Below are positions 88 through 20,170 of a stretch of 21,621 bases of DNA, piece after piece (the stretch's first letter is position 1; the number at the start of each line of letters is the position of its first letter). The position numbers and the translations under genes are program-made. Source of the DNA: a virus. Where the stretch lies: IMG/VR virus record IMGVR_UViG_3300035698_007329, positions 1-21,621 of that record; one strand, written 5' to 3'. The notes below the pieces were generated by a model. The model saw only the letters and a list, made by a program, of their open reading frames with translations, did not search any database and had not been told where the DNA came from.

Positions 88-1278
88 ATGGCAGATACAC
101 AACCAAGATTTAATCGAATTAAATTCGCAAACCCTCCATTAAAAGGTAACAATAGAACATATCTTACTGCTGATGTTGCTGCAACTGGTACAGATTTACC
201 CGTTATGTCAACATCTGGTGACCAGTTTAAAATAACTGGAGATGCTGATTATTATGTAATAACTGGTAATTATGGTGAAGAAAAATCAGAGATAAAATTA
301 GTTGATGCTTCAGATGCTGGAACAGATGCAACTGGTTTTACTGTTGCTGCATTAACATATGCTCACAGTGCTTCTGAACCAGTTACTTATATACCTTATA
401 ATCAAATTCAAATATTTGGATCTACAACTTCTGGTGGAACAAAAGTACCATTAGGAACAATAGATATAGATCCAACACAGCAATTTACAGAATATATTTA
501 TGAAGGAACTACAGATGGGGATTATGCTTATTTCTATGTTGCATATTATAATTTAAACGATACTGAACTAGGACCATATAGTGATGAAATTGAAGCTTCA
601 AAATTTGGACATAGTTCTGTTAAAAGGGTTATTGAAGCTGGTCTTAGAAAAGCATTAACAAAAGTTGATGAGAATGAAAATGGTACAATTACTTGGGATA
701 ATGCAATTGAAATTATACAAGATGGTATAGATGAAATAATGGCAAGAAAAAGAAAATGGCCATTCTTACATAAATTAGATACATCACAAACAACAACAGC
801 AAGTACTGCTTATGTTAGTTTACCGAGTGATGTTTCAGTTTTAGACTTTGTTATTGTTAATGATAAGAAGTTATTTAGAATGAGTCGCCTTGACCATGAT
901 AAATATACTAAAGCTGGTGCTGTAATATCTACTGGATCACCAACTCATTATACTTTAAAGAATGATAAAATATACTTTTATACAACACCAGATCAGGCTT
1001 ATGATATTATATTTGAATATTATAAGAATCCTGCCGTAACAGATTCTTTGGTGGATACAATAAACCAACCGTTTATTGTTCCATTAGTATATTACTCTGC
1101 AAGTCAATTTGCCTCACTTAGAGGAAATGACAAAAGATCAGATAAGATGTATTCATTATTTGAAAAACTCGTAGAACAACAGGTAGAAGAATATACTGGA
1201 CCAGAACAATCTGGAGAAGCAGAATATATAGAACAAACATCTACTTACGGTGAAGAAGATGTTAATGTAATACTATAA
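88..1278 (+). CDS. Head-tail adaptor / tail tubular protein A-like
   Basis: Probable neck protein joining the portal to the tail. Residues about 180-396 have the layout of phage adaptor proteins (P22 gp4 and T7 gp11 type): an N-terminal helix, an acidic loop (VDENENGTITWD), a helix rich in Ile/Asp (EIIQDGIDEIMARKRKWPF), then beta strands with an LPSDV turn and a C-terminal helix. Residues 1-175 are a beta-rich, Gly/Thr-rich extension that looks like an immunoglobulin or fibronectin-like domain, so the protein is longer than a minimal adaptor. The nozzle gene follows 4 bases later. The start ATG lies in an A-rich leader without a Shine-Dalgarno. The call rests on fold-like pattern and gene order, not on an alignment. 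Confidence 0.6.
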   Translation: MADTQPRFNRIKFANPPLKGNNRTYLTADVAATGTDLPVMSTSGDQFKITGDADYYVITGNYGEEKSEIKLVDASDAGTDATGFTVAALTYAHSASEPVTYIPYNQIQIFGSTTSGGTKVPLGTIDIDPTQQFTEYIYEGTTDGDYAYFYVAYYNLNDTELGPYSDEIEASKFGHSSVKRVIEAGLRKALTKVDENENGTITWDNAIEIIQDGIDEIMARKRKWPFLHKLDTSQTTTASTAYVSLPSDVSVLDFVIVNDKKLFRMSRLDHDKYTKAGAVISTGSPTHYTLKNDKIYFYTTPDQAYDIIFEYYKNPAVTDSLVDTINQPFIVPLVYYSASQFASLRGNDKRSDKMYSLFEKLVEQQVEEYTGPEQSGEAEYIEQTSTYGEEDVNVIL

Positions 1279-5032: not shown

Positions 5033-6364
5033 ATGGCAGAATACAAACCAGCGACATTATACGATCCAAAGGATCCTAAAAATACAAGAACACCAGCAAG
5101 AACCAAAGCAGAGGCAGATAGGCTCTTTGCTTCAGGTTATCAATTAGAAAAAGCTCCACCTGACCCTTCAGAGGTTAGAAGAACCGAAGATGGTGGAATA
5201 GAAAGTCTAATTACTGCTGATAATTTGTCTAACTGGAAAAATAAAGCAAAGTTTTACGACATTGTTAAAGAAGGAATTAAGTTGAAACAAGGCATGAATA
5301 AAGATATTCGTGGTGCTAAAACTTATTGGAGAACAACCGCAAAGGATACATCTCCATTTGCAGAAGAAGAATTTACAATGATGAGTCCAGCTCAACAGGC
5401 TTCAGTCAGATCAAAGAAGTATGCAACTGCAACTGCACATCTTACTGGTCTAGAAGAAGAGGAATCATATCGTGAAGGCAGAATGTCAGATACATTAAGA
5501 AACCTTCAAGATGTTGTTGAAGAAGAATCAGATAGACCTGGTAAAGAATTAGATGCAAAAATTAAAGAATTAAAGTTTTTAAAAGATTTAGAAGATTCTG
5601 GTTTAAAATATGAGGATGGTGAGTTTACTAAAAGCTTTACAGGAGCTGATGCTAAAAGTATTGCAGAAGCTATTAAGAAAGCTGAAGGTGGTGTATCTTA
5701 TGATTACTCAGATCCAAATAGATCTGAAAAAGGTGCTTACCAATTTATGCCAGATACTTGGGCAAGTTGGTCAAGTCAATATGCTTCAGAGGTTTTACAA
5801 GAGTCTACAAGAGAGCTTGCAATGACTCAAAAAAATCAAGATGATGTTGCTCAATGGAAGATACAAAAATGGTTAGATGCAGGATATAATCCACAACAGA
5901 TTGCTGCTCTATGGAACAGTGGTAAACCGACATATAAAGGTAGAAGTGGTACAAGTACAATAACAGGTGAACCATATGACGTTGAAGCTTATGTTGATAG
6001 ATTTTCTACAGCATTAGGAGAAGTAATGCCAGACAAACCAGAACCAATAGTATTAACAGATTCAGTTAAGGGAACAATAATGAAAAACCTTGGATGGGAT
6101 AATAATGTTGTAAAAGATTTAACAGAGGATGATTGGTTTGTAATTGGAACAGAAGCAAAAGAAGTAGCTTATGAAGAAGCTCATACTTATGTAAAAGGTG
6201 AAATTAAAAAAGGTAAAGGAAAAGATAAGAAAGAGCAACAAAGAATAAAAGGAGTTCTACAAGAAGAATATGGAACTATTTTATCTGCAGGCGATATTAA
6301 CGCAGTACTATACCAAAATGGATTGGTAGAAGTAAGTGATGTGTTTATACCTGTTGGAGGTTAA
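5033..6364 (+). CDS. Virion protein with lytic transglycosylase domain
   Basis: Residues about 207-305 match the SLT/lysozyme-like transglycosylase pattern: a helix ending in the candidate catalytic Glu218 (AIKKAEGG), then EKGAYQFMPDTWASW at 232-246, and the C-terminal AALWNSGKP helix at 291-299 that closes the sugar cleft. The enzyme would cut the glycan strand of peptidoglycan so the phage can deliver DNA. Residues 1-200 are helical and charged; the C-terminal 120 residues include a Lys/Gly-rich stretch. With no signal peptide, and lying among virion genes, it is better read as a virion-associated hydrolase than as the lysis endolysin. It probably acts with the 1804-residue protein that follows 10 bases later. 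Confidence 0.75.
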   Translation: MAEYKPATLYDPKDPKNTRTPARTKAEADRLFASGYQLEKAPPDPSEVRRTEDGGIESLITADNLSNWKNKAKFYDIVKEGIKLKQGMNKDIRGAKTYWRTTAKDTSPFAEEEFTMMSPAQQASVRSKKYATATAHLTGLEEEESYREGRMSDTLRNLQDVVEEESDRPGKELDAKIKELKFLKDLEDSGLKYEDGEFTKSFTGADAKSIAEAIKKAEGGVSYDYSDPNRSEKGAYQFMPDTWASWSSQYASEVLQESTRELAMTQKNQDDVAQWKIQKWLDAGYNPQQIAALWNSGKPTYKGRSGTSTITGEPYDVEAYVDRFSTALGEVMPDKPEPIVLTDSVKGTIMKNLGWDNNVVKDLTEDDWFVIGTEAKEVAYEEAHTYVKGEIKKGKGKDKKEQQRIKGVLQEEYGTILSAGDINAVLYQNGLVEVSDVFIPVGG

Positions 6365-6374: not shown

Positions 6375-9300
6375 ATGAAAGAAAGCTTAAAGCAAAAAAT
6401 ATTACAACGTATAAAAGATAGAGGTATTCTTGATAAGGATAAAAAGAAAGCTAAAGAGTTTACTGCTGAGGATTATTATTCTATTTTAGATAAAGCTGAC
6501 CCTTACAGGAAAGCAAGAGAAGCCACCCCAGTCGCAAAACCCATACCACAGCCTCAACCAAGACAACCAGTTCAAGAACAACCAGTTGGTCCAGTTATTC
6601 CCACAGAGAGAGCTGAAAGAGCAGAAGGAGCTAGAAGAGAATTAAGAAGGCAACCAACAACTACAAGAATGTTAAAGGATGAAGTACTTGAAACACGAGT
6701 ACCAGATGAATTGGCTGCTTCAACACCAAGAACTGCATTAAAAGATTTGGAAGCTCCAATAGATGAAGCTGAAATAAGAAAACAAATAGTAACTGGTATA
6801 GAAACTGGTGGTCGTTTTATTGGAGAAAAACTTGGTGCTGGGATTGGTTATATCACTGGGCTTTTATCTGAAAAAACAAGACAAGACTTTGAAGTACTTA
6901 GGGGTAAGAGAGATTTTGCTGATTATGATTTAGACAAATTAGGAGAAGTTGCAAAAGAAATATCAGAATCCACTAAACAATTTGGTGGAGGAATTGTTGG
7001 TACTGGAGCCATTGTAATACCAGAAGCTCTTAATACTGTTATAGATGTTACAAAAGCTACTCCTGGTGTTATCACTGGTAAAGAAGAAGATTTTATTAAT
7101 ATAGCTGCGGATAATTTCGTAGAACAATATAGTACTGAACTTGGTAAGTTTACTGGAGAAGCTCCAAGAATTACAAAAGAACAAGCTAGAAATTATCTTG
7201 TTACTGGAAACCTAGAGGGTGATGTAAGTAAAATAGATAATAATGAAGTTGTTAAAGCTTGGTTTTCTACATTAGTACCAATTGGAATAGACTTTTGGAT
7301 TATATCTGATTTAGTTGCATCAGCATTTAGATCTCCAACAAGAAAACTTGCTTTAAAAAATTCAGCTTCTAAACAAGAAATTAAACATGCGTATAAAGAA
7401 CTCGGATTAAAAGAGAGTTCTTCGATAACTCAAGTTAAGAAAAGATTTAGAGAACTTGCTCATCAATATCATCCAGATAAATTATCCAATGCTTCAGAAG
7501 CACAAGTAAAAGAAGCTTCTGAGATTTTTAATCGTGCAAGTAGAGCTTATGAAATATTAAAAAAGAATATTGCTAGGCAACCCGCTAAAACTCCAGAAGG
7601 AACTAAACCAGAAGTAGTTGTTAAAAAAGAACCTAGTGTTGTAAGAAAAGCTGAACCAGTAAGACCTGGTGAAGAAGGTTTAAAAAGTAAGCTAACTAAG
7701 ATATTAGAAAAACAGAAACTTAAAGTTGAACGTGGTAAAGCAGATCCGAAAGGTCTTGCATTATTAGAAAAGGTTGTTGCTAATATTAAACAACCTAAAG
7801 AGGTTGCTAAACCAGAGATTATAAAACCTAAAGAGGTTAAACCAAAAATTAAATCAATGGAAGATTTATGGAACACAGCTACTGTAAAAGAAAGAAAAGA
7901 AATGGCTATTGGTGTGATTCCTAAAAGACTTGAAAAAAAGTTTGGAAAGGAAACTTCTGCTTATGATGAATTCTTTTTTGGAGAAGAAAATAGACAAGAA
8001 ATTCAAGATTATTTTGATTCAAGATTAGTTATTAAACCAAAAGTTGTTAAACCTAAATCTAAACCTATAAAAGAAATACCCAAACCAGTAAAAGTACCTC
8101 AGAAGATAACTAAAAAAATTACACTAACAGATCAGATAAAAGCTAGAAAAGTTGAAACACCTTCAAGAGTTATGGCAGAAGTTAAAGAAAGGGTTGCTAA
8201 AGAAGAAGCTAAGCTAGAAAGAATAGCAAAAAAAATATCAGAATCAAAGAAGGTTGAAGTAGGAAAAGAGCCAAAAGGTTATATTGCAAAAATGCAATAC
8301 TATGGTAAGCTATCACAATCTAAAGATAAGAAGGTTAGTAAGGATGCTCTTAAAAAGATGAGAGAATTACTTAACGAAGAAAAGCAAAGAATATTAAAAG
8401 AAAAAGGAACAGAAGGTTTAACACCAAAACAGATAGCAAAAGAAGAAGCTATAATAAGAGGAGAAGGAGAAGATGTACGAGAAATATCTGAGGAAGCAAG
8501 AGGAAGATTACATAAAGAAACAACTAAACTTCCAAGTGGAGACGAGACAGATTATCTTGGTGGTAAAGGTTATGCTTCTACTGGCGATTACAGAAAGATA
8601 ACTATACCAGATAACATGACAAACATACAGATGCCAGAAATGTTAAAGTTATCTAAACAATTAACTGGTGGTAAAGTACCATTCTTAAAAAAGTATCCAA
8701 AAGCAAGAGGTATGTTTTATCCTGGAGAGAGAAGAATTGGATTACACCCAGATATATTTAAAGATACAGTTCTTGCAGCTCAAGTATTTGCTCATGAAAT
8801 AGGACATCTTATTGATAATTTACCAGACATGGATGTCAAGCTTAGTGGTAATTTAATGAATAAATTTGCTACTATAAGAAGAGCTAATAGACAAATCACA
8901 AAAGCTATTGAAGAACTTTCTGAAACAAACCTAAAAACAGTTAAGAAAGAGCTATGGGATTTAAGTAAATGGTGGAGACCTATTGATGAGAAAACTGCCA
9001 AAGTAAGTGAATTAAAATATAGAAAACAAGCATCCGAGTTATATGCGGATTGGATTTCTGTTCTTTTTAATAAACCAGAAATACTTCCAAGACAAACTCC
9101 AGAAGTTTACAACATGTTCTTTAAGTTTTTAGATGAAAAGCCAGAGTTTAAGGATGCATACTTTAAAGTAATTGATTTCTTAAGTGGTACATCAGATAGT
9201 GTAATGAAAGCTAGAGATCTTGACATGGAAACAATGTTCAAGAGTAGTGAGTTACAATTTAGAGAAAAAGCATTACAAGCTAGACAGAAGAATAAAACAG

Positions 9301-11789
9301 TATTCTATTTAGCAAAATATGAATTCTTTGATAAGAATACAGAAATTATTAATAAATTTAAACAAGCCAAAAAAGAAGGTAAGATTAAGAATGAAGATGA
9401 CAATATTGTTTATTCTTTTGAAGAAAATGAGTTTATTGCCAATGATGTTAAAAATGCTTTAGCAAAGCTTGATCCAACAAGAAAAGATTATTTAAAAAAA
9501 GGATTAACTGATGTTGATTTTGGTAAGATACTTTTCTTTAAGAGGGTTATGGGAGATAGGTCTGGAATAGCAAATCCTTTAGGACACAATCCAAAAACAG
9601 CTGAAGATCAACTTAATTATTTATATAGAAAGCTAGGAGAATCAAAATACAAACTAGCAGAAAAAGCAGTAGAGAAATTAAACAATGTATTTAGAACAGA
9701 AATACTAGACGAACTTCTTAAGAGTGGTTTAATGAAACCAGAGTTACATAAGGAATTAACAAAATCTGATAATCCTTACGGTACATTTCAATCTACTAAA
9801 CATATAGTAGAAGGTTTTGTTTCTTCATCTATTTTAGAACAAGTTGGTACACTTGATGATATTGCAAATCCATTGCCTGCAACGTTGCTTAAAATGATTG
9901 CTTTTAAAAAAGCTATATTTAAAAACAACCTTAGAAGAGAAACTACTGATTGGTTAAAAAAGAACTACCCAGATGAAATTACAGAGGTTAAAGTTGATGC
10001 TAGAACTGGTCATGTAAAAGCTGCACCTCCTGGATATGATATAATGAAAACAAAAGAAAATGGAATCATAAAAGCACATTATGTAGATGAATATATTGTA
10101 AAATCACTAGAATTTCAATCAAATGCTTTTAGTCAAGTTATTAAAAGAACTATTGGTTTAGCAAATAGTTATTATTTTAGACCATTATTCGTTGGTCTTA
10201 ATGTGGGATTTCAAACCTACAATCTTGTAAGAGATTTTACAAGAACTTGGGCAGCTACTCCAGGAATGAGTTTTCTCAGATTAGTAAAACAATATGCAAA
10301 AGTTCTTCCAGCATCAGTAGATAGAGCTGTTGGAATTGAGAATCCAACTATAAGAGAAATGGAAGATAACTACATGCTTGGACTTACATATAATGATATA
10401 ATTGTTGGAAACAAAACCGAGGTAGATCAGGCAGAAGCTTTAGCTCGTAGATACGATTTAATGCCAAAGGAAGCAAGAAAGCATAAAGTATTACAACCAA
10501 TATTAGATTTCTTTGAACAGATTAAATTGGTTGGTGATACAATAGAAACACTTCCAAAAGTTGCTGCATATACATACTTGAAAGATAAAGGAACTTTTGG
10601 TAAGAAAGAACTAGCACATATTATTAGAACTAGAGTTGGAACACCTGCATATATGAGACAGGGAGCTGCTGCATTGTCTTACAATAACATCTTCTTGTTT
10701 GCCAATATAGCAAAGGAAGGATATAGATCAGATTTTGAAACAGCAGTAACAGATCCAAAAACAAGAAGTGGACACTTCTATAAGAGAATTAAATTGAATG
10801 TACTTCCAAAGATACTAATGTGGTTAGCTGGATTAGGATTATTTGGAGACGTTGTACAAGATTTAATGAGAAAACAATCAGAGTATAAGAAAAGAAGTTA
10901 TACAGTTATTCCTTTTGGTTATGATGAAAAAGAAAATTCAATGGCAGCAACTATACCAAGTGATGAAACTGGTAGAATTATTGGAGCTATGACTTGGGAG
11001 TTTTTACGAATGATTCAATTTAAGAAATTACCAACAGATTTTCTTATAAGTGTTTTAGATTATACTGGTGGTCAATTACCAGGAATAAGTCCCGCACTTG
11101 AAATAACAGAATCTACTGCATTAATGCTTTTAGGAAAGAATCCAAAAGATAGATTTAGAGATAGAAATGTTTTAACAGATGATGAAATGAAAGCAGGAGG
11201 TTGGTATAGATGGGAACCATATCTAAGATGGCTTATTAATAAAGCTGGAATCACAAGATTAGAACTTAGAGATAGAGTTAAAGATGAATCTGTTGCACAG
11301 AAAATAGTTAAGTGGACTCCAGTTGCTAGTAGATGGGTATCGATATCAAGTTATGGTATTGCAGATGAATTAAAAATGGTAAAAGTTAAAGTTGAAAAAG
11401 ATGAGTCTATTGCTAAGCTAGAAAAGAATAAAGCTTTATATAAATATACTAAAGAATGGAAGAATATTGATAAAGACATTAGTAGAGAAAAATATGAAAA
11501 AGAGTTTGCAGATATTTTTGATGACTTAAAAGTGGCTGTTTACGGAGGAGAAACTGTAACAATGCAACAGATAACACACTTACATCAATCGTTTGTTGAA
11601 GATATTTTACAACTTAAAGGAGACCCAAATGTCACATCATTAATATATTCTAATACAATTAAACAACAAACTGCTTTATTAAAAGAAATAAAGAAAACAA
11701 TGCCACTTAATAAGTACAATGAATTTGGTAGGTTAATTACTGGAGCTAAGGTAATATCAATAGCAACGTGGAATAAAGCACAACAATAA
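6375..11789 (+). CDS. Giant internal/ejection protein with J domain and HEIGH peptidase motif
   Basis: 1804 residues, the largest gene here. Residues 50-80 are Pro/Gln-rich. Gly-rich, hydrophobic helices lie at about 140-220 and 292-318 and could insert in a membrane. Residues about 342-398 form a DnaJ-type J domain with the diagnostic HPD at 366-368 (LAHQYHPDKL) and a following helix ending RAYEILKK. Residues 410-720 are Lys/Glu/Pro-rich repeats. A zinc peptidase motif HEIGH is at 807-811, with a likely third ligand Glu888 in SELYADW. The region about 1260-1560 (LNVGFQTYNLVRD and after) resembles the late domain of phage 'large polyvalent proteins'. It is probably packed in the capsid and ejected with the DNA, as T7 gp16 is. 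The role is inferred; the two motifs are seen directly. Confidence 0.7.
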   Translation: MKESLKQKILQRIKDRGILDKDKKKAKEFTAEDYYSILDKADPYRKAREATPVAKPIPQPQPRQPVQEQPVGPVIPTERAERAEGARRELRRQPTTTRMLKDEVLETRVPDELAASTPRTALKDLEAPIDEAEIRKQIVTGIETGGRFIGEKLGAGIGYITGLLSEKTRQDFEVLRGKRDFADYDLDKLGEVAKEISESTKQFGGGIVGTGAIVIPEALNTVIDVTKATPGVITGKEEDFINIAADNFVEQYSTELGKFTGEAPRITKEQARNYLVTGNLEGDVSKIDNNEVVKAWFSTLVPIGIDFWIISDLVASAFRSPTRKLALKNSASKQEIKHAYKELGLKESSSITQVKKRFRELAHQYHPDKLSNASEAQVKEASEIFNRASRAYEILKKNIARQPAKTPEGTKPEVVVKKEPSVVRKAEPVRPGEEGLKSKLTKILEKQKLKVERGKADPKGLALLEKVVANIKQPKEVAKPEIIKPKEVKPKIKSMEDLWNTATVKERKEMAIGVIPKRLEKKFGKETSAYDEFFFGEENRQEIQDYFDSRLVIKPKVVKPKSKPIKEIPKPVKVPQKITKKITLTDQIKARKVETPSRVMAEVKERVAKEEAKLERIAKKISESKKVEVGKEPKGYIAKMQYYGKLSQSKDKKVSKDALKKMRELLNEEKQRILKEKGTEGLTPKQIAKEEAIIRGEGEDVREISEEARGRLHKETTKLPSGDETDYLGGKGYASTGDYRKITIPDNMTNIQMPEMLKLSKQLTGGKVPFLKKYPKARGMFYPGERRIGLHPDIFKDTVLAAQVFAHEIGHLIDNLPDMDVKLSGNLMNKFATIRRANRQITKAIEELSETNLKTVKKELWDLSKWWRPIDEKTAKVSELKYRKQASELYADWISVLFNKPEILPRQTPEVYNMFFKFLDEKPEFKDAYFKVIDFLSGTSDSVMKARDLDMETMFKSSELQFREKALQARQKNKTVFYLAKYEFFDKNTEIINKFKQAKKEGKIKNEDDNIVYSFEENEFIANDVKNALAKLDPTRKDYLKKGLTDVDFGKILFFKRVMGDRSGIANPLGHNPKTAEDQLNYLYRKLGESKYKLAEKAVEKLNNVFRTEILDELLKSGLMKPELHKELTKSDNPYGTFQSTKHIVEGFVSSSILEQVGTLDDIANPLPATLLKMIAFKKAIFKNNLRRETTDWLKKNYPDEITEVKVDARTGHVKAAPPGYDIMKTKENGIIKAHYVDEYIVKSLEFQSNAFSQVIKRTIGLANSYYFRPLFVGLNVGFQTYNLVRDFTRTWAATPGMSFLRLVKQYAKVLPASVDRAVGIENPTIREMEDNYMLGLTYNDIIVGNKTEVDQAEALARRYDLMPKEARKHKVLQPILDFFEQIKLVGDTIETLPKVAAYTYLKDKGTFGKKELAHIIRTRVGTPAYMRQGAAALSYNNIFLFANIAKEGYRSDFETAVTDPKTRSGHFYKRIKLNVLPKILMWLAGLGLFGDVVQDLMRKQSEYKKRSYTVIPFGYDEKENSMAATIPSDETGRIIGAMTWEFLRMIQFKKLPTDFLISVLDYTGGQLPGISPALEITESTALMLLGKNPKDRFRDRNVLTDDEMKAGGWYRWEPYLRWLINKAGITRLELRDRVKDESVAQKIVKWTPVASRWVSISSYGIADELKMVKVKVEKDESIAKLEKNKALYKYTKEWKNIDKDISREKYEKEFADIFDDLKVAVYGGETVTMQQITHLHQSFVEDILQLKGDPNVTSLIYSNTIKQQTALLKEIKKTMPLNKYNEFGRLITGAKVISIATWNKAQQ

Positions 11790-11844: not shown

Positions 11845-12043
11845 GTATGCAAATACTTCTAGCAGTCAGATAATAATTTGCCAACAAATAATTACCCATC
11901 TACCCGTTTTGTTAAGCTGGATTACTTCACGTAAACAACTTGTTTCTATCGTTTTATTACTTTATGTGATATGTATCACCTTACGGAAAGTCGTCATTTA
12001 CATAATCTGGCCAAAACGAAGGTTTCTGCAAAGAGTCTGGTGG
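11845..12043. other. Gene-free stretch between the terminator and the last minus-strand gene
   Basis: About 200 bases with no convincing gene on either strand. The only plus-strand frame here starts with TTG inside the terminator T tract. The base composition is less AT-rich than the genes around it. It contains a perfect dyad, GTGATA-TG-TATCAC at 11966-11979. On the minus strand this is the 3' untranslated region of the early transcript, so a small RNA or processing site is possible but not shown. Confidence 0.5.
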
Positions 12044-12271
12044 CTATGTGGACTTTTTTTGTGGAATACTTTTTTTTAGACTCTCTTTATTTTTTTCAAA
12101 TATATTTACAAAACGTCTTGTAAATAACTTTCTAAAACTTTTAGTAGTGGTCGAACTATCTATCTTTTTTAGAAGTTTTACAAGTGTAATGTAAGTGTTA
12201 TTAAATGCAACTGGAGGAATCTTTTTAAATTCCCTAAGTGCATAGAAAAAATCATCTTGTTTAATCATCAT
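12044..12271 (-). CDS. Hypothetical protein, 75 aa
   Basis: Last gene of the leftward operon. The protein is short and basic, with a helical N-terminal half (DDFFYALREFKKIPPVAF, then ITLVKLLKKI) and a Ser/Thr/Lys-rich C-terminus. No family, signal peptide or membrane segment is recognised. Two consecutive ATG codons offer the start, and neither has the T at -1 that is usual in this phage. It is separated from its upstream neighbour by 39 bases. The frame is open for 75 codons in AT-rich DNA and could be fortuitous, but there is no better candidate here. Confidence 0.45.
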   Translation of the reverse strand: MMIKQDDFFYALREFKKIPPVAFNNTYITLVKLLKKIDSSTTTKSFRKLFTRRFVNIFEKNKESLKKSIPQKKST

Positions 12272-12310
12272 TCATAATCTTATTTTTAAACTATCAATCC
12301 ACCTAAGTCG

Positions 12311-12637
12311 CTAAGTGTTTAATCTTCTATATTCTATTCTTCTATTATTTTTTACTGCATCTTTAATACCAAATTCCATTCCTTTACTGATTCCAAAATC
12401 AATATAGACTACAGTCTTTTCTGCACCCTTACCCCATTCTAATCCTGCCTTTATACCTAGGTCTCTTTCTTTCTTAATATCATCATTGAGACATTGAGTA
12501 TATAGCATATGTGAGGCGAATGGGTATTCTTTTTTCTCAAAACAATCCCTCATACAAAGTATTAGATACTCTGTATTTCTTTTAACGTTACCAGAAAGTG
12601 GTGATTCTAATACTACTTTCATACTATTTTTGCTCAT
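12311..12637 (-). CDS. DUF7768-like protein
   Basis: 108 residues with the pattern of the phage family DUF7768, a small Rossmann-like domain related in style to nucleoside 2-deoxyribosyltransferases and DUF4406. Strand 1 and turn are KVVLESPLSGNVKRN (7-21), the middle helix leads to PFASHMLYTQCLNDD (39-53), and the last strand and turn are VVYIDFGISKGM (76-87). The order SP..G, SH.LYTQ and D.GIS.GM is what I recognise. Members are common in phages next to DNA-modification or nucleotide genes; the substrate is unknown. Its ATG lies inside the 3' end of the upstream gene (14-base overlap), with AAAGGAAAGAT just before it, one of the few SD-like leaders in the window. Confidence 0.65.
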   Translation of the reverse strand: MSKNSMKVVLESPLSGNVKRNTEYLILCMRDCFEKKEYPFASHMLYTQCLNDDIKKERDLGIKAGLEWGKGAEKTVVYIDFGISKGMEFGIKDAVKNNRRIEYRRLNT

Positions 12638-12902
12638 ATCTTTCCTTTAAACATTGTTTATTAAGCTCCTTTATTTCTTTTGGGCTATCTTTTATTGGTG
12701 GTTTCCAATTTGAATTAAATCCCATACGTATTGACATCATTTCTACATACTGTTCGTTAACCTCTCGCATTCTTTCTTCATGTGCTCTCATATCTTCTTC
12801 ATGACTTGTAGTTGCATCAACTTCTATGGGTTCATTTGAAGCACCTTCAAATATTGGATCAATTGATGTTCTGTAATAATCATACATTGTTGAAAGTGTC
12901 AT
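12624..12902 (-). CDS. Small protein with shared CLKxRYE C-terminal tail
   Basis: 92 residues from the first ATG; a longer version would need a TTG at 12917 and would overlap the preceding stop. The chosen ATG sits one base after the upstream TAA (TAATATGAC). The body has an acidic, helical middle (EEDMRAHEERMREVNEQYVEMM, residues about 38-60). The last 15 residues read KELNKQCLKERYEQK, nearly identical to the tails of two proteins 8 kb away (20663 and 20916). The tail codons overlap the start of the DUF7768-like gene. No function is recognised; the tail may be a docking peptide or the by-product of a conserved start-site cassette. Confidence 0.6.
   Translation of the reverse strand: MTLSTMYDYYRTSIDPIFEGASNEPIEVDATTSHEEDMRAHEERMREVNEQYVEMMSIRMGFNSNWKPPIKDSPKEIKELNKQCLKERYEQK
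12633..12671 (-). repeat. Copy A of the KELNxxCLKxRYE cassette
   Basis: Encodes KELNKQCLKERYE at the end of the 92-residue protein. The ATG of the DUF7768-like gene (12635-12637) is contained in it, in another frame. Related copies are at 20347-20385, 20675-20713 and 20928-20966. Confidence 0.7.
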
Positions 12903-12903
12903 A

Positions 12904-13095
12904 TTATAAAACTTCAATACACTTCACCTCAGCCTCATCCCTATTGCCAATTTTTCTAGCAATAAATAGGGCATGCTGTTCGTCAAGTGCTTGAACGATT
13001 ATATCTACATGATTAAAAGCGTGTGAAATTCCTGCAGATGAATGACTCTCGTCAAAGCAATGAATTATATATTTATTTGATTTTTGTTCTCTCAT
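12904..13095 (-). CDS. Hypothetical protein, 63 aa
   Basis: Short alpha/beta protein: strand YIIHCFDESH near residues 9-18, a strand VDIIVQALDE, helix QHALFIARKIG and strand AEVKCIEVL at the C-terminus. This beta-helix-beta layout is common in small phage proteins of unknown function. No catalytic pattern stands out. It lies between the putative transglutaminase-like gene and the 92-residue protein. The start ATG has T at -1 and a purine-rich leader (AGTAAAGAAGT), which also reads in another frame as a degenerate copy of the CLKxRYE tail. Confidence 0.6.
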   Translation of the reverse strand: MREQKSNKYIIHCFDESHSSAGISHAFNHVDIIVQALDEQHALFIARKIGNRDEAEVKCIEVL

Positions 13096-13214
13096 ACTTC
13101 TTTACTAAGCATTGAAGACTAGCTATCTAGATTGCATTGTGCCGAACTCTATAAAGTATACTCGCAAGTTCTATTTTACATAACAATCACTATCTTCAAT
13201 GTTTAAAAAACAAA
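13096..13214. repeat. Intergenic stretch with a long-range inverted repeat
   Basis: A 9-base inverted repeat, CATTGAAGA at 13110-13118 and TCTTCAATG at 13193-13201, extends to 12 positions with one bulge and encloses about 74 bases. Inside are a smaller dyad CTAG-ctat-CTAG and, on the minus strand, a TATACT (13157-13162) that could be a -10 element, without a good -35. It could be a structured leader for the 63-residue gene. Confidence 0.35.
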
Positions 13215-13688
13215 TTAATTACATACTACTTGATAAGTATTGTCTTTAACTTCTCCTATGTTTTGATCACCCCATACCTTGTACGAACCATTTGTTGGCT
13301 CTATCCATGGTGCAATCCACGCATGACTTCTATCTTGATTAATCATTATACTGGATTCAATTCCTACTTTTAGAAATTCTTTCTGTAACCACTGAGCTTG
13401 TTGATAACAGTTGTTAGTTTCTTTGTCGTAGTCTCTCATGTTTCTTGTTGCCAAAACTTTAGTAAGTGCATCGTGTTGTGTATATGTTTCTAATAGCTCA
13501 TCATAATCTTCCTTTAATTCTCTATACTGTTTAAGAGCTATTTCGTTTTGGTTTATTGCTTCGTCGTATATAGAACTCTTATCATAGAATTCTCCTAATG
13601 CCCCAATCTTAAATGTTGTTACTCCAACTAATAGGAGCAATATACAAATCATTATAAGAGGAGGCAATCCCTCTTTATTTAAGGTCAT
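13215..13688 (-). CDS. Membrane-anchored protein with transglutaminase-like Cys-His-acid pattern
   Basis: 157 residues. Residues 9-27 are one strong membrane segment (LIMICILLLLVGVTTF), so the rest probably faces the outside or is a lipid-side anchor. Residues about 45-85 are a short coiled coil (ALKQYRELKEDYDELLETY). The C-terminal domain has NNCYQQAQWLQKEFLKVGI (Cys94 at the head of a helix), then SHAWIAPWIEPTNG (His122 and Glu130), as in transglutaminase-like/NlpC-related thiol enzymes, where Cys, His and Asp/Glu form the site. It might act on cell-envelope peptides or proteins. It starts with MTLN inside the end of the 51-residue gene. The fold call is by pattern only and could be wrong. 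Confidence 0.5.
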   Translation of the reverse strand: MTLNKEGLPPLIMICILLLLVGVTTFKIGALGEFYDKSSIYDEAINQNEIALKQYRELKEDYDELLETYTQHDALTKVLATRNMRDYDKETNNCYQQAQWLQKEFLKVGIESSIMINQDRSHAWIAPWIEPTNGSYKVWGDQNIGEVKDNTYQVVCN

Positions 13689-13830
13689 ATTTCTTTCTTA
13701 ATGCGTTAATACACATCTTAAATAAGGAACGACCTTTATGCATTCTTTTTGCGTTACTACGGTTCTTGCGTTCCTTGTTTAAACGTCTTCTCCGTCTTTC
13801 TTTATTAATGTATTTTCTATTTAATGTCAT
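13675..13830 (-). CDS. Very basic 51-residue protein
   Basis: Begins MTLNRKYINKE and is followed by a run of five arginines (residues 12-16) and many Lys/Arg to the end (ALRKKYDLK). Such a charge suggests nucleic-acid or DNA-mimic-partner binding, but no family is recognised. Its stop overlaps the start of the next gene by 14 bases, in the same arrangement as the CLKxRYE genes (AAGAAATATGAC holds both the Lys-Lys-Tyr-Asp codons and the next ATG). Both this gene and the next begin with nearly the same codons (ATGACNTTAAAT). The frame is 51 codons with start context AT-T, so I judge it real. Confidence 0.6.
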   Translation of the reverse strand: MTLNRKYINKERRRRRLNKERKNRSNAKRMHKGRSLFKMCINALRKKYDLK

Positions 13831-13878
13831 ATATATAATCCTCTGTTTTTGAGGTGTTTAAAAAGTTAGTAATTCTTT

Positions 13879-13925
13879 GCTAATATTAAGTAATATATGC
13901 TAATACTAACTTGGCTAATATTAGC
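13879..13925. repeat. GCTAATATTA repeat cluster
   Basis: Three related elements follow one another: GCTAATATTA at 13879-13888, GCTAATACTA at 13899-13908 and GCTAATATTAGC at 13914-13925, the last a perfect 12-base palindrome. They lie in a 160-base gap upstream of the minus-strand gene starting at 13830. They look like iterated operator sites for a regulator, or short iterons. Confidence 0.55.
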
Positions 13926-13990
13926 GAATCGCTTAAAATCACCGTATAGGATGGCTTGTAAGCTGTTTTTAGAGCAGTTTTGGTATCTTG

Positions 13991-14206
13991 CTACCTTTCC
14001 CAATATTTTTGTGGGAAATTGCCCATAAAGTCTTTTCTTTTAATGCTACCACTTTTAAGGAATTCTGCTAAGCATCTATTCATTACATAGTAATCAAAAT
14101 CTATTTTCTTAATTACCTTATTAAAACACTCGGCTGTATTTAGATTCTTATGTTTTCTTTTGGCATTTTTAAATTTAAGCTTTATTTCGTTTTCTAATTC
14201 CATCAT
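13991..14206 (-). CDS. Hypothetical protein, 71 aa
   Basis: Short, basic and mostly helical (ENEIKLKFKNAKRKHKNL, then AECFNKVIKKIDFDYYVM). It has two adjacent ATG codons; the first overlaps the TGA of the RusA-like gene (sequence TATGATGG), so the two are probably translationally coupled. No family is recognised. It may be a small accessory factor of the resolvase or simply a linked early gene. A 160-base gap with operator-like repeats follows it. Confidence 0.55.
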   Translation of the reverse strand: MMELENEIKLKFKNAKRKHKNLNTAECFNKVIKKIDFDYYVMNRCLAEFLKSGSIKRKDFMGNFPQKYWER

Positions 14207-14598
14207 ACTATTTTAATATTGATAATTACTTTAGGTTCTTCTCCGTAAACCTTCTTTGCGACGAGTGTGGCTATCTGATTATCGTCATGATAAAAGATGC
14301 CAGTAAACACATCCATATAAAACTTAACCATATTGTCAATATCGGGTTTCTTAATATGTGGTTGCCCAATTAGTTCTTCTCTTTTCTTTTTAGATGTGCT
14401 TTTAGGAATTGGCATATAAGCAGTAAGCTCAAACTCTAATACTCCTTCTAGTAATTCTTCTTTAAAGTCTTTTCTTATAGCTTCCTTTTCTTTTTTATGT
14501 GGATCATAAACAGATATAAACTTACCGAGTCTTCTTGCTCTTGGTCTACCTTGTGCTTGTGGTTTTCCTAAAATTGTTATATCTTTTATTCCTTCCAT
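14203..14598 (-). CDS. rusA: RusA-family Holliday junction resolvase
   Basis: 131 residues from the ATG at 14598; the frame could be extended to a TTG at 14634, but the ATG matches the usual AATATG start context and puts the first strand (DITILGKPQAQGRPR) at the N-terminus as in the family. The diagnostic segment is KKPDIDNMVKFYMDVFTG (residues 84-100), with Asp86 and Asp88, followed by FYHDDNQI with Asp105/106 and VAKKVYG. These acidic residues hold the metal ions. RusA enzymes are dimeric and cut four-way DNA junctions, resolving recombination or replication intermediates before packaging. The SSB and Cas4-like nuclease genes in the same operon fit this role. Confidence 0.9.
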   Translation of the reverse strand: MEGIKDITILGKPQAQGRPRARRLGKFISVYDPHKKEKEAIRKDFKEELLEGVLEFELTAYMPIPKSTSKKKREELIGQPHIKKPDIDNMVKFYMDVFTGIFYHDDNQIATLVAKKVYGEEPKVIINIKIV

Positions 14599-14708
14599 AT
14601 TATCTTCTAAATCACCAATACCATTTAAGCCCAAAAATTAAAAGTTTTACCCTAAGTTCAAATGATTAGTGATTGTGACTTGAAACCTTGCGGTGATTCA
14701 AAAGACAA

Positions 14709-14981
14709 TTAATATTCTAGAAAGTAATATGTTATGTCAATCTTTAATTTTCCACACAACTTCTTAAACTCCTCTTTAGTTCCAGAGAACTTAAAAAAGT
14801 AGTCAGTCCATTGGTCTGGTTTTCCTCTGTAAGACATGTCTATTCTATAACAAAAACCCATCTCATCTTCGTTCTCTATTACTCCAATTATCTTATCCAT
14901 CTCGCCTTGATTAAAGCTTTGTGTCTTCAGTGGAATCTCTATAATCAGTTTGTTCTTTTTTGCGTATATTTTTTCTTGCAT
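14709..14981 (-). CDS. Hypothetical protein of a common phage type, 90 aa
   Basis: Alpha/beta protein. The N-terminal strand KNKLIIEIPLKTQSFN leads to a Glu-rich helix, then MGFCYRIDMSYRGKPDQWTDYFFKF (residues about 41-65) and a C-terminal helix EFKKLCGKL. The block 'FCYRIDMSYRGKPDQWTD' has the look of a widespread phage protein of unknown role. No catalytic residues are evident. It starts at an ATG with T at -1 and is followed by a 110-base gap before the RusA-like gene that contains no gene, only a weak imperfect hairpin near 14680-14701. Confidence 0.6.
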   Translation of the reverse strand: MQEKIYAKKNKLIIEIPLKTQSFNQGEMDKIIGVIENEDEMGFCYRIDMSYRGKPDQWTDYFFKFSGTKEEFKKLCGKLKIDITYYFLEY

Positions 14982-14995
14982 ACATTTACAACAAC

Positions 14996-15029
14996 GATAG
15001 TTGCCCCAATGTATACTGAGGCGACTATC
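14996..15029. repeat. Imperfect inverted repeat upstream of the 90-aa gene
   Basis: Arms 14996-15007 (GATAGTTGCCCC) and 15018-15029 (GAGGCGACTATC) pair over 10 of 12 positions, closing a 10-base loop. There is no T tract in either direction, so a terminator is unlikely. It falls in the minus-strand leader of the 90-residue gene and may be an operator or an RNA hairpin. Confidence 0.45.
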
Positions 15030-15044
15030 ATTAATCGAATTCGG

Positions 15045-15293
15045 TTATTTCTTTTTTCCTTTTTCTGGGTGTAATTTGTTATGTTTTCCAATGGCTGAGA
15101 CTCCTTTCCCAGGTTTCAATTTCTTTAAATTACTTCTTTTGTTATCCTTCTTATTGTGATTGTTATGATGAACGAGTTCACCTTTTTTTGCATTTTTGAT
15201 ACGTCTTCTATAATCACTTGAAACTCCATTCTTCCAACGTCCATTCGATTTTCCGAATCTGGCCATTTTTGGGTTCTTTCCTTGAGGTGGCAT
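15045..15293 (-). CDS. Small HNH endonuclease-like protein
   Basis: 82 residues, strongly basic. After an N-terminal ARFGKSNGRWKNG block and SDYRRRIKNAKKG, the segment ELVHHNNHNKKDNKRSNLKKL (residues 39-59) has the His-His, Asn and NL spacing of the HNH (beta-beta-alpha metal) motif. The ending SAIGKHNKLHPEKG is also found in this type of phage protein. It could cut DNA as a homing-type or packaging-assisting nuclease, or act only in DNA binding; the usual zinc-binding cysteine pairs are missing. It lies directly after the DNA methyltransferase gene, with 19 bases between them. Confidence 0.6.
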   Translation of the reverse strand: MPPQGKNPKMARFGKSNGRWKNGVSSDYRRRIKNAKKGELVHHNNHNKKDNKRSNLKKLKPGKGVSAIGKHNKLHPEKGKKK

Positions 15294-15312
15294 AATATAA
15301 AATATAAATTAA

Positions 15313-16002
15313 TTATAAGTTTAACGTTTGTTTCCTTGAGACTTCTTCAATTCTTTTATGTGATATGTCGCAATATTTTTCATCAACTTCACAGCCAATG
15401 AAATTACGACCTTGTTGTATCGATGCAACTGCTAGTGTTCCACTTCCTATAAATGGATCAAGAACTATGTCATCTTTATTACTCGAATATTTCACGGGTA
15501 ATTCCATTACGGTTATTGGTTTTTGTGTAGGGTGTTGATAGAAATTTTCTCTCTTAAATGACCAAATATCTGGTACATTCTTCTTCTCGAAGTTTAATTC
15601 TGGTTTACCTTTAACTGCGTATATTATAAACTCATGTTGGAATCTATAACTTTGTCCCATTCCTATACTACACTTATTCCAAACAATACAATTTTTTATT
15701 TCAAAGTATCTATCAACTAAGTTATATATCCTTGGATAATTTCTATAGTCAATAAATATATAGATAGCAGTATTGTCTTTTAATATTCTGTACAACTCTT
15801 TAAGAATAGTATCAAACCAAACTGAATGTTGTTCTGGATCTAAGTCGTCGTTGTCGAAGCCTTTAAAATCTTCTTTGCCACGACCACTATAAGCCATGTT
15901 GTAAGGAGGATCTGTTACAACTAAGTCGATTGACTCATCTTGTAATCTCCCCATCACCTCCAAACAATCCTCGTTCAAGACTTGATTTAAAATTTCTTCC
16001 AT
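15313..16002 (-). CDS. Beta-class DNA methyltransferase (N6-adenine or N4-cytosine)
   Basis: 229 residues. The catalytic DPPY motif (TDPPYN, 30-35) comes first and the S-adenosylmethionine motif DPFIGSGT (182-189) near the end; this order defines the beta class. A HPTQKP motif at 157-162 precedes the cofactor site, as in most N6-adenine and N4-cytosine enzymes. The target-recognition part between about 40 and 150 is short, so a small recognition site is likely. No restriction enzyme gene is evident nearby other than a tiny HNH protein. A solitary methyltransferase in a phage usually protects the genome from host restriction or marks DNA for regulation. The call as an N6/N4 enzyme is secure; the exact base and site are not. 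Confidence 0.9.
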   Translation of the reverse strand: MEEILNQVLNEDCLEVMGRLQDESIDLVVTDPPYNMAYSGRGKEDFKGFDNDDLDPEQHSVWFDTILKELYRILKDNTAIYIFIDYRNYPRIYNLVDRYFEIKNCIVWNKCSIGMGQSYRFQHEFIIYAVKGKPELNFEKKNVPDIWSFKRENFYQHPTQKPITVMELPVKYSSNKDDIVLDPFIGSGTLAVASIQQGRNFIGCEVDEKYCDISHKRIEEVSRKQTLNL

Positions 16003-16010
16003 AGTTGTTC

Positions 16011-16214
16011 TTATGCTTTTGACTCTTCAATATCTTCTTCTATTTCCTGAATCTGATCATCTATGTCCTGTACCATATCCTGTACTGTTTCCTCACTTTT
16101 CTTTTCTGCTACTTTCTTAAGATACTTGAAAGCCAATAAAGCAAACTTTTTATCGGATGTTTCGAAATCTATTTCGTTATTACAACCGTTATACTTTTTT
16201 AATGGTGCTCTCAT
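16011..16214 (-). CDS. Hypothetical acidic helical protein, 67 aa
   Basis: The N-terminus is basic (MRAPLKKYNG) and the rest becomes acidic and helical, ending in a probable coiled coil (DMVQDIDDQIQEIEEDIEESK, residues about 46-66). No family is recognised. It overlaps the end of the upstream HNH-like gene by 26 bases and is 8 bases from the methyltransferase start, so the three are likely cotranscribed. It could be a small oligomerising partner; this is inference. Confidence 0.55.
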   Translation of the reverse strand: MRAPLKKYNGCNNEIDFETSDKKFALLAFKYLKKVAEKKSEETVQDMVQDIDDQIQEIEEDIEESKA

Positions 16215-16527
16215 AATACTTTTTGTTTTTTTCTAGAAACTCTAAATCTTTATTGTTTGGTTTGTAACCACGAGACTCTAGAAAAACTTTAGTTTTTATT
16301 AAGTACTTCCTCCTAACTTCAAAACTATGAATGTATTGAAGTCTTTTTCTACCCTCTGGTAGATGATTCCGTACGTTATTCAGAGGGGCTGCATTGTAGG
16401 GACTGTTGGACGACCTGGTTAGAATATGATGCAATGCATTTGCATCGTTTCTCCCATCTTCCCAATCAAGACAATACCCACCTAAATCAAATAATTCCCT
16501 AACCTTAGCTGAGAAATTATTCTTCAC
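16189..16527 (-). CDS. HNH-like protein, 112 aa
   Basis: Starts at a GTG that directly follows the TAA of the upstream gene (TACTAAGTG). Residues 30-56 contain ALHHILTRSSNSPYNAAPL, then NNVRNH, the layout of a compact HNH nuclease (His33-His34, Asn50/51, His55) seen in small phage proteins that carry an 'HHI.GR.S' block. The C-terminal half is basic and helical (KYLIKTKVFLESRGYKP). It may cut or nick DNA. The metal-site cysteines of the larger HNH family are absent. Evidence is motif-like only. Confidence 0.5.
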   Translation of the reverse strand: MKNNFSAKVRELFDLGGYCLDWEDGRNDANALHHILTRSSNSPYNAAPLNNVRNHLPEGRKRLQYIHSFEVRRKYLIKTKVFLESRGYKPNNKDLEFLEKNKKYYESTIKKV

Positions 16528-16764
16528 TTAGTACTCACGTGTGATTAATGGTTTCTGCCAAAAACGTGAATGCTTTTTAGCAAATAAACCTACTGCTCTT
16601 GGACAGGTTGCAACTCTGACGTACCTTCGTAATCCGCTGATACTACCGTAAGATCCAATCCTAGACAATGCAGGAATAAATGCTTTTGCGTCTTCAACTG
16701 CAACTACTGATAGTTCCAGTTTACATCCGCAATGACTACAATACTTTTTTGATGCTTCTCGCAT
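16528..16764 (-). CDS. Small cysteine-rich protein with partial zinc-binding motif
   Basis: 78 residues. The N-terminus has CSHCGC (Cys9, Cys12, Cys14), the start of a zinc ribbon; the only later cysteine is Cys54 (ATCPR), so the second half of a classical ribbon is incomplete and His65 could contribute. The middle is Gly/Ser/Arg-rich (SRIGSYGSISGLRRYVRV). A DNA- or RNA-binding role is possible. The gene runs straight into the GTG of the HNH-like gene, indicating coupled expression. Confidence 0.5.
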   Translation of the reverse strand: MREASKKYCSHCGCKLELSVVAVEDAKAFIPALSRIGSYGSISGLRRYVRVATCPRAVGLFAKKHSRFWQKPLITREY

Positions 16765-16765
16765 A

Positions 16766-16954
16766 TTATTGTTTTCCTATTAGAGCATAAAATAATATTA
16801 TGCACAAACAGAAAATTATTATTAGTAAAAATGGAAGCCATATTGGTGAAAATATCCACCACCAATTCCACGTTATAACTCCAGTTGTTTTTAAAACAGC
16901 AAGAATTATTACAGCAAAGCCCAATAAGATACCTCCCTTTATTTTTGATTCCAT
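16766..16954 (-). CDS. Two-helix small membrane protein
   Basis: 62 residues from the ATG at 16954, in the usual TATG context; a longer frame beginning at a TTG at 17023 is less likely. Residues about 6-24 (KGGILLGFAVIILAVLK) and 36-58 (LPFLLIIIFCLCIILFYAL) are membrane segments, joined by an aromatic turn (ITWNWWWIFSPIW). The 'TW.WWW..SP.W' turn is seen in many small phage membrane proteins, sometimes annotated as transmembrane Fragile-X-F protein. A holin-like or membrane-remodelling role is conceivable, but the gene sits in the early operon, away from any lysis gene. Confidence 0.7.
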   Translation of the reverse strand: MESKIKGGILLGFAVIILAVLKTTGVITWNWWWIFSPIWLPFLLIIIFCLCIILFYALIGKQ

Positions 16955-17040
16955 ATGTTTTAATTTTCCAAACGAATTAGATATGTAACTTGTATAGGAT
17001 AAGCAAATATCTAATCCATTCAAAAAACTAAAATTCTCCC

Positions 17041-17373
17041 TTATTCTTTAGTGTCTTCATCATGTTTATTTTTTTCTAATTTATGATATCCGCCTTTAAG
17101 CCATAGGATATAGCAATAACAGGCAACCTTGAGCAAATCTTTCTCACGACCAAAGTTTTTATATCGTCCTAAATATTTTAAACAAGTTCCAAGTATCCAA
17201 TCAACTCCTGTTTCTCCTGGAAACATTTCACAAAGACCATCTGTAAATTCTTTATCCTTATTTAATTTATATTTATCTCCTCCATGCCAAAACTGATTCT
17301 TTACTAATATTACAAAAAAACTGAAATACTTTTTCTTTTGTTCCACATTAGTACTACACTTATCTAGGTTCAT
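17041..17373 (-). CDS. Hypothetical protein, DUF3310-like tail (110 aa)
   Basis: The C-terminal half has VDWILGTCLKYLGRYKNFGREKDLLKVACYCYILWLKGG (residues about 57-96, quoted here in parts: ILGTCLKYLGRY, EKDLLKVACY, YILWLKGG). The 'KYL.R....G...DL.KA..Y' spacing recalls the DUF3310 region of phage nucleotide-kinase-like proteins. The N-terminal half is basic and lacks a Walker motif, so kinase activity is not supported. It overlaps the upstream helical gene by 14 bases. The family link is tentative. Confidence 0.5.
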   Translation of the reverse strand: MNLDKCSTNVEQKKKYFSFFVILVKNQFWHGGDKYKLNKDKEFTDGLCEMFPGETGVDWILGTCLKYLGRYKNFGREKDLLKVACYCYILWLKGGYHKLEKNKHDEDTKE

Positions 17374-17854
17374 AAGAATCTGCCTCTTGTTTTTGAAGTT
17401 CCTTTACTCTCTGCATAATAGCAGATAGAGCATCATCAACAGAGCCGAGTTTTAATTTATAACTATGGTACATTGTTTCGTATAATATCTGTTTGATTTG
17501 TAGGTCTTTTGTTTCTAAAACAAGTGCATTCTCAATCTGTTCTTTATTCTTGACCTTACCATCCTTAGCTTTTATTTTCTCAGATATCTCATTCCACCTT
17601 TTAGCTTTAATTTCTTTCAGTTCAATCTTTATACTCTCTGAAATCCTTTGTAAATCACAAATGTAATCTGAAAGATAGAATTTATATCCAAGCAATTTTG
17701 TCCTAATCTCAGCCAATTCTCCACCATTATACTCTAAAAAAGAACTACCAAGATGATTAATAATACTTGTAATCTTTTGCATTACTTTATATCCATCTTC
17801 TTCTTTACGTTCCTTATAAAATTCTTCTTTTATAAGTTGGTATTTTTCTAACAT
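17360..17854 (-). CDS. Helical protein, possible UvsY-like recombination mediator
   Basis: 164 residues, almost all helix and strongly charged. The layout is an N-terminal helix pair, a middle 'EYNGGELAEIRTKLLGY' and 'YLSDYICDLQRISESIKI' region, a Lys-rich stretch (IKAKRWNEISEKIKAKDG) and a final long helix (SVDDALSAIMQRVKELQKQ). This resembles the small helical proteins that load or hold recombinases and SSB in phages (UvsY of T4), and it lies immediately downstream of a Cas4-like nuclease and the SSB-like gene. The similarity is of shape, not of clear motifs, so alternatives such as a structural coiled-coil protein remain open. Confidence 0.35.
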   Translation of the reverse strand: MLEKYQLIKEEFYKERKEEDGYKVMQKITSIINHLGSSFLEYNGGELAEIRTKLLGYKFYLSDYICDLQRISESIKIELKEIKAKRWNEISEKIKAKDGKVKNKEQIENALVLETKDLQIKQILYETMYHSYKLKLGSVDDALSAIMQRVKELQKQEADSYEPR

Positions 17855-17856
17855 AA

Positions 17857-18549
17857 TTATTTAGAATATGGACAGTTATTTGTACCCTTCTTCGAATATG
17901 GACACCAATAACAGTGTGTTCCAGGATTAGGATTAAATCTTTTCTTCTTCATCTTCTTCACAAAAACTTTCAGCTCATCTTTAAAGATGTCAAGCTCTGC
18001 ATCTGAATAGTTTACTGGTAAGATTTGTGGTTTATACTTTTTATTATCTACCTTCTTTTTATTTACAACAGAATAAATTAATGGAACATTTTTCCCAAAC
18101 ATTGTTCTGTGAAAATAACAGTAGGCTTTTGATTGAATTGTTTTAGTGTGTTCCTCTTTATAATCAAAAGAGGAGGTTTTATATTCTACTATCTTGTCAG
18201 TATCTAACCTATCGTAGACTCCATCAAATGGGAGTGGTGTAAAGTCAAGACTGACTCTAAACCTTTTTTCTGTTTCAATAACCTCTCCATAGACAGGATT
18301 TTCTTTATACTTTACAAACAACTTCTTAACAAGCTCAATATCTTCGTTAGTGACTGATGTGGCTTTCTTAACTTCTTTAAAGTTCGGCTCTAAGCCAGTA
18401 CTATAATATAGTTCTAAACTTTTATGATAGGCATTTCCTATTGAAAAGTTTTTGTTTGATAGTTGTAAAAGTCTTACTATATAAGTCCATTTAAATTGTA
18501 GTGGACAAGAATTATAAGTGTTGAATTTTGTAGCCGATATTCTATCCAT
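17857..18549 (-). CDS. Cas4/RecB-like PD-(D/E)XK exonuclease with four cysteines
   Basis: 230 residues. The N-terminal SCPLQFKW gives Cys15; His42 lies in GNAYHKSLELYY; the catalytic centre is FDGVYDRLD (Asp109) and KIVEYKTSS (Glu122, Lys124), followed by the QxxxY helix IQSKAYCYF (139-143). The C-terminus has THCYWCPYSKKGTNNCPYSK with Cys213, Cys216 and Cys226, which with Cys15 can hold a 4Fe-4S cluster as in Cas4 and AddB-type nucleases. It should trim DNA ends during recombination-dependent replication. No CRISPR array or other cas gene is present, so the adaptation role of Cas4 is not implied. It shares one base region (TAATGG) with the stop of the upstream gene. Confidence 0.85.
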   Translation of the reverse strand: MDRISATKFNTYNSCPLQFKWTYIVRLLQLSNKNFSIGNAYHKSLELYYSTGLEPNFKEVKKATSVTNEDIELVKKLFVKYKENPVYGEVIETEKRFRVSLDFTPLPFDGVYDRLDTDKIVEYKTSSFDYKEEHTKTIQSKAYCYFHRTMFGKNVPLIYSVVNKKKVDNKKYKPQILPVNYSDAELDIFKDELKVFVKKMKKKRFNPNPGTHCYWCPYSKKGTNNCPYSK

Positions 18550-18947: not shown

Positions 18948-18953
18948 ACTTTT

Positions 18954-19691: not shown

Positions 19692-19705
19692 AGTTTACGA
19701 ATGTG

Positions 19706-19737
19706 TCCTACTGGTTTATAGAGTACATACAGTAGGA
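19706..19737. repeat. 8-bp inverted repeat upstream of the SSB-like gene
   Basis: Perfect arms TCCTACTG (19706-19713) and CAGTAGGA (19730-19737) with a 16-base loop, in the gap before the SSB-like gene. It may be an RNA hairpin in the leader or an operator. No T tract accompanies it. Confidence 0.4.
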
Positions 19738-19778
19738 AAAATATTATTAGTGAATACATTTTTAAAGTGCTTCATATT

Positions 19779-20096: not shown

Positions 20097-20157
20097 ACTA
20101 CTATAAGCTTCGTTTTATACTTATTATTAACTATTTTACCTACTTGTGATTGACTTA

Positions 20158-20170
20158 TATACTAAGTATA
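20158..20170. promoter_or_regulatory. Palindromic operator over the -10 and start site
   Basis: TATACT-A-AGTATA (20158-20170) is a perfect 6+1+6 palindrome that covers the -10 and the probable start point of the leftward promoter. A related element is at 21601-21613 in the other promoter. A dimeric repressor bound here would block the polymerase. Confidence 0.5.

Follow-up and report, generated by a model that had tools for sequence, protein, structure and literature searches.

Giant phage proteins that are encoded in virion gene blocks and carry a zincin metallopeptidase as their hub domain have been described as polyvalent proteins by Iyer et al. 2017 (PMC5512222), the main text of which does not mention DnaJ. 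The 4515-aa protein gp69 of JC1, which has an LPD38 domain, was detected in purified virions by mass spectrometry (PMC9144972), and the large ejection protein gp16 of T7 refolds and spans the membrane and the cytoplasm after ejection (PMC8954989). Ejected phage proteins pass through the tail in an unfolded state, and they refold and draw DNA in. Phage-encoded J domains are also known: Rki of RB43 is able to act on host DnaK (PMC3486835), and the DnaJ proteins of jumbo phages have been described as separate cochaperones (PMC7824862, PMC12619734). We found no report in the open-access literature of a J domain in an ejection or polyvalent protein.

The window analysed here is the whole stretch of 21,621 nucleotides that makes up the 21.6 kb virus record IMGVR_UViG_3300035698_007329, which is classed as linear and is probably a fragment. 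A reading of this DNA made from its sequence alone (hereafter the sequence-only reading) had described an ejected protein of 1804 residues combining a J domain with a HEIGH metallopeptidase, and the ORF at 6375-11789 indeed translates to 1804 aa. The features of this protein are as follows.

6375-11789, plus strand: giant multidomain protein of 1804 aa (polyvalent, putatively ejection-type), from the ORF and homology to the Baldr 2329-aa protein and family ORFs
7272-7322, plus strand: hydrophobic segment, residues 300-316, a putative membrane anchor from hydropathy, lying about 19 aa N-terminal to the J domain; charge -2 before and +5 after
about 7371-7577, plus strand: predicted J domain, residues about 333-401, from the PF00226 match, AlphaFold helices and Foldseek J-domain matches
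7470-7478, plus strand: HPD motif of the J domain, residues 366-368, from the sequence
7581-8564, plus strand: Lys-rich, charged linker, residues 403-730, its flexibility predicted from composition
8568-9290, plus strand: predicted zincin metallopeptidase, residues 732-972, from conservation in relatives, model and VIA
8793-8807, plus strand: HEIGH motif, residues 807-811, from the sequence
9036-9038, plus strand: third zinc ligand Glu888, in ELYAD, from conservation
9291-11786, plus strand: conserved helical C-terminal module, weakly LPD38-like, from conservation in the family

The span 7413-9040 assigned earlier to the two domains is right for HPD, HEIGH and Glu888, but the J domain starts slightly earlier, at about 7371. 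The linker at residues 403-730 yielded no Pfam domain at or above its cut-off in the Pfam scan.

Compared with the known systems, the 1804-aa protein shares with polyvalent proteins its place in a virion gene block, the zincin hub and an Asp three residues past HEXXH, and its family shares their interchangeable ART, RadC, methylase, helicase and GGDEF domains (PMC5512222). Its C-terminal module resembles LPD38 only weakly. Like T7 gp16 and other ejection proteins (PMC8954989), it would be the large last protein of the ejection set and is expected at the membrane and in the cytoplasm. No sequence relation between it and these ejection proteins was detected. To our knowledge, T7 gp16 has neither a J domain nor a zincin. 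As in Rki, a phage-encoded J domain is expected to act on host DnaK, whereas Rki has no zincin. A further comparison is a 2329-aa hypothetical protein of the cultured Pelagibacter phage Baldr (EXVC032P), which has 22% identity and shares the zincin (HELGH and ELMAE) and the C-terminal module but differs in that no J domain was detected in it and in that the same chain has, by eye, an apparent transglycosylase stretch.

Judged by profile match and predicted structure, residues 339-401 are a real J domain. PF00226 matched these residues with E=1.7e-10 and 41.3 bits against a gathering cut-off of 27.8, and the NCBIfam J models agreed, with ActJ and DjlA scoring best (5.9e-9 for the DjlA model, a match below its full-length cut-off, as expected with one domain only). 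A PDB sequence search returned J proteins, with a DnaJ-like protein at the top (1.3e-5). The AlphaFold model, built from a two-row alignment with a mean pLDDT of 66.5 overall and about 78-87 over the J part, places helices at residues 333-342, 351-364 and 375-400, HPD occupying the loop that joins helices II and III. Foldseek matched this model to solved J domains, including DnaK-bound 5nro_B, at a probability of about 1.00, with no E-value <=0.001. The full J-domain pattern proposed earlier is thus borne out both by a score above the gathering threshold and by the presence of the expected helix hairpin. Pfam gave PF00226 only, and no G/F region, zinc-finger or DnaJ C-terminal domain was found, indicating a type III (class C) J protein; the DnaJ equivalog models of NCBIfam scored far under their cut-offs.

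Residues 732-972 are, on conservation and modelling, a zincin with all catalytic and zinc residues. In an alignment of 77 relatives, H807, E808, G810, H811 and E888 were invariant together with Ala891 and Pro909, and D814, three residues past HEXXH, was nearly invariant. The HEIGH motif is not a chance occurrence, since none of these relatives departs from the H, E, G and H of HExGH or from the Glu in ELYAD, and the earlier assignment of Glu888 as the likely third ligand is borne out. The predicted structure of this region (pLDDT 87, pTM 0.81) also agrees with a zincin: the top-Z rows in VIA were metallopeptidases, namely IrrE/PprI (Z 7.7) and lethal-factor-type zincins (Z 6.8), and the polyvalent zincin, with its Asp three residues after HEXXH, was tied to the same fold by Iyer et al. 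2017 (PMC5512222). These Z values are moderate, with no match at Z 8 and no Foldseek E-value reaching 0.001, and naming a nearest structural relative was not upheld because every Z was below 8. Single relatives matched M48 (to 1e-6) and SprT-like (to 5e-6) families, whereas the zincin of the 1804-aa protein alone gave sub-threshold Pfam matches to zinc peptidase families (best 14.8 bits) and scored below the curated cut-offs of M48, SprT and M78, so that it is assigned to no named peptidase family. Many relatives (L097, L007, Baldr) have about 125 extra residues inserted between HEXGH and the Glu ligand, which the 1804-aa protein, L003 and L005 lack.

The 1804-aa protein as sole query found no viral contigs, and its family was opened by using an alignment of it with the Baldr homologue as query. 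Alignment-based scans returned 8, 80, 9 and 57 loci, duplicates among them, and a scan with the 1804-aa protein and L097, a phage-like stretch in a Bacteroidetes MAG, added no further members. About 150 homologous ORFs, including duplicates, were obtained from IMG/VR and GTDB contigs. L097 is the top-scoring relative in direct comparison (31% identity over 845 aa), and in a wider BLAST table other relatives match the 1804-aa protein over at least 1000 residues at 33-37%. The C-terminal module is present in 94/99 member ORFs; PF18857 (LPD38) matched one relative with E=0.0008, under its cut-off, and did not match the 1804-aa protein itself. The N-terminal parts vary among relatives and include RadC, helicases, methylases, ART-PolyVal, GGDEF, Zeta_toxin and LPD3. 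Sequence comparison shows a large family of giant phage proteins that is defined by the zincin and the C-terminal half, while the N-terminal domains are swapped among its members. The combination of at least two unrelated domains in one phage protein with a zincin, in a family that exchanges its N-terminal domains, matches the pattern that Iyer et al. 2017 (PMC5512222) described for polyvalent proteins. One member, L005:6443-12847, has apparent GGDEF and ART domains N-terminal to its zincin.

Within this family the J domain recurs. L097 carries one that scores above the PF00226 cut-off (30.7 bits), and at about 31% identity it keeps both domains with their key residues, so that the loss which would have refuted the sequence-only reading is not seen there. 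The near copies L114 and L115 also keep HPD and score just under the cut-off (26.8 bits), so that HPD is retained in three lineages. J-like domains in which HPD is lost or reads NPD were found in L122 (20.1 bits), L111 (19.2) and L074 (16.4), and L092 is a weaker case that is perhaps suggestive of a J-like domain with HPD changed or lost. All J copies lie upstream of the zincin in their proteins, and every PF00226 match in about 112 related virus records falls inside an ORF of the giant-protein family. Reversed and shuffled controls gave nothing comparable to the J-like matches; the J-profile was partly built from the sequences it recovers, which leaves the Pfam model as the independent test. 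A tree of 106 sequences was made by a quick method, and its branch order within the J-bearing part is uncertain. It places all seven J rows within a set of 34 whose support of 94 is not starred, but requires five changes, indicating that the module was gained or lost more than once.

In most members no J domain could be detected. Several complete relatives gave no J-like match, among them L045, which is the sister of L097. Therefore a J domain universal in the family was rejected, as was one unique to this phage, given the copies in L097 and L114/L115 and the decayed copies elsewhere. On profile evidence, the J domain is a recurrent, patchy and sometimes decayed module of the giant-protein family, which extends the finding from one protein to a module. 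Because most members are without it and HPD is changed or lost in L074, L111, L122 and L092, the family does not depend on DnaK recruitment. The sequence-only reading had called the presence of both domains in one protein unusual; the pairing is there, but its rarity was overstated, since phage polyvalent proteins usually have a zincin as their hub domain (PMC5512222) and J domains recur in distantly related phages. This recurrence suggests that injected phage proteins may sometimes borrow host protein-pulling machinery, and extends the known repertoire of polyvalent protein domains by one that recruits a chaperone.

The best hint to the mode of action of the J domain is the hydrophobic segment ahead of it, which had been missed earlier. 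In all seven proteins with a J or J-like domain, a hydrophobic stretch ends 16-29 residues ahead of this domain, ranks in the top 0-0.7% of the hydropathy windows of its own protein, and has a net charge of -1 to -5 before it and +1 to +5 after it. Among members without a J domain, the same negative-before, positive-after pattern is seen in 26% of N-side hydrophobic segments, and at this background seven of seven has a chance of about 1e-4, or about 1e-3 with sisters counted once. The position test taken alone is modest (combined p about 5e-4, with related sequences not independent), and the segments, which come from hydropathy counts rather than a membrane predictor, are of moderate mean hydropathy only (1.15-1.78). 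By the positive-inside rule, the charge asymmetry would put the J domain on the cytoplasmic side. The arrangement fits an inner-membrane anchor with a cytoplasmic-side J domain, as in DjlA, Sec63 and Pam18, in which a hydrophobic segment likewise precedes a J domain that faces the side on which Hsp70 acts, although these are cellular proteins and the rest of their chains is unrelated to the 1804-aa protein. As far as the open-access literature shows, a J domain beside a hydrophobic segment in a polyvalent protein appears to be new. Across the family ORFs, hydrophobic segments on the C-terminal side of the zincin have the reverse asymmetry, positive before and negative after, as expected for a second, returning membrane pass; T7 gp16 likewise has two such regions.

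The giant gene lies in a tail/ejection block, with a probable fibre gene and the following two features upstream.

88-1278, plus strand: tail adaptor protein SU10_adaptor, Pfam PF24175, E=1.6e-14
5033-6364, plus strand: 443-aa protein directly upstream of the giant gene, with an EGG...GAYQF stretch resembling a lytic transglycosylase motif

The gene for the Baldr homologue is similarly preceded by tail tube genes and followed by one for a tail fibre. Gene order and relatives thus suggest that the 1804-aa protein is ejected and is probably located in the virion. A transglycosylase identity for the 443-aa neighbour was not adopted, as it comes from the pattern only and no transglycosylase-type match was obtained in PHROG or PDB.

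The reading we favour, at about even confidence, is that this polyvalent protein is of the ejection type, that on entry it recruits DnaK of the host at the membrane, and that its zincin processes it or cuts host proteins. The 1804-aa protein would be a giant internal virion protein of the pilot or ejection type in a tailed phage, and on entry it would thread from the virion at least partly unfolded. The hydrophobic segment would insert into the inner membrane, leaving the J domain just after it on the cytoplasmic side, where it would recruit host DnaK and trigger the DnaK ATPase. DnaK could then capture the remaining approximately 1400 residues (zincin and C-terminal module) and help to pull in or fold them, and the zincin might release portions of the chain by cutting itself within the long linkers, or might cleave host proteins. 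Both host Hsp70 use and peptidase processing, as proposed in the sequence-only reading, are plausible; we infer the use of DnaK, the protease activity and its target. With a recurring J domain next to a putative membrane segment in a protein that is probably ejected, a chaperone-driven step can be tested directly, and the natural HPD-lacking relatives are ready controls. It seems improbable to us that the virion-delivered, membrane-anchored J domain amounts to an import motor powered by DnaK, like those that Sec63 and Pam18 build at cellular translocons, by which the ejected protein and perhaps also the genome would be pulled through the inner membrane.

Alternatively, the J domain might work in the producing cell, where DnaK would keep the giant protein soluble and aid its loading into the capsid and the zincin would mature it by the time packaging is complete. 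In P1, cleavage of DdrB precedes its packaging (PMC5512222), and the predicted role of phage J proteins is usually in folding and assembly (PMC7824862), but assembly would not need the putative membrane segment with its charge asymmetry beside the J domain in 7/7 proteins, and close relatives without a J domain presumably assemble, so we regard this as unlikely. The fixed place beside the hydrophobic segment, which argues for a local role, also weighs against an early hijack or counter-defence in which the delivered J domain diverts DnaK, altering the heat-shock response or blocking chaperone-based phage sensing. Such diversion has precedents in Rki of RB43, which binds DnaK, is toxic and stabilises sigma-32 (PMC3486835), and in bNACHT25 sensing, which reportedly needs DnaJ (as cited in PMC12619734). 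It would also suit polyvalent proteins as bearers of anti-host domains, the relatives here having ART, GGDEF, RadC and methylase. Few copies are delivered per virion and DnaK is abundant, which counts against diversion, and we rate it as rather improbable. The changed or lost HPD in L074, L111, L122 and L092, in which other features persist, would be explained if the J-like domain served chiefly for structure or protein docking, as J-like proteins of the Pam16 type do, with Hsp70 stimulation incidental. This seems improbable: HPD is kept in the 1804-aa protein, L097 and L114, and its retention suggests selection, given that the first two share no more than about 31% identity outside the J domain.

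Apart from the virion block, the window has a block of small genes on the minus strand at 11900-21500, including the following, named by eye.

14203-14634, minus strand: RusA-like protein
15313-16002, minus strand: DNA methylase
17857-18549, minus strand: PD-(D/E)XK nuclease with a Cys-rich end

Near the giant genes of relatives, an IS200/IS605-type TnpA and TnpB pair was seen by eye just 3' of the phage gene in the MAG contig (L097:5547-7039), and the record entitled EXVC032P Baldr (L001, OQ414636.1) has locus tags that read EXVC031PHodr. Just upstream of the giant gene in L015 (5566-7110) lies a PHROG match to L-alanyl-D-glutamate peptidase (5.7e-30), a cell-wall enzyme adjoining a probable ejection protein.
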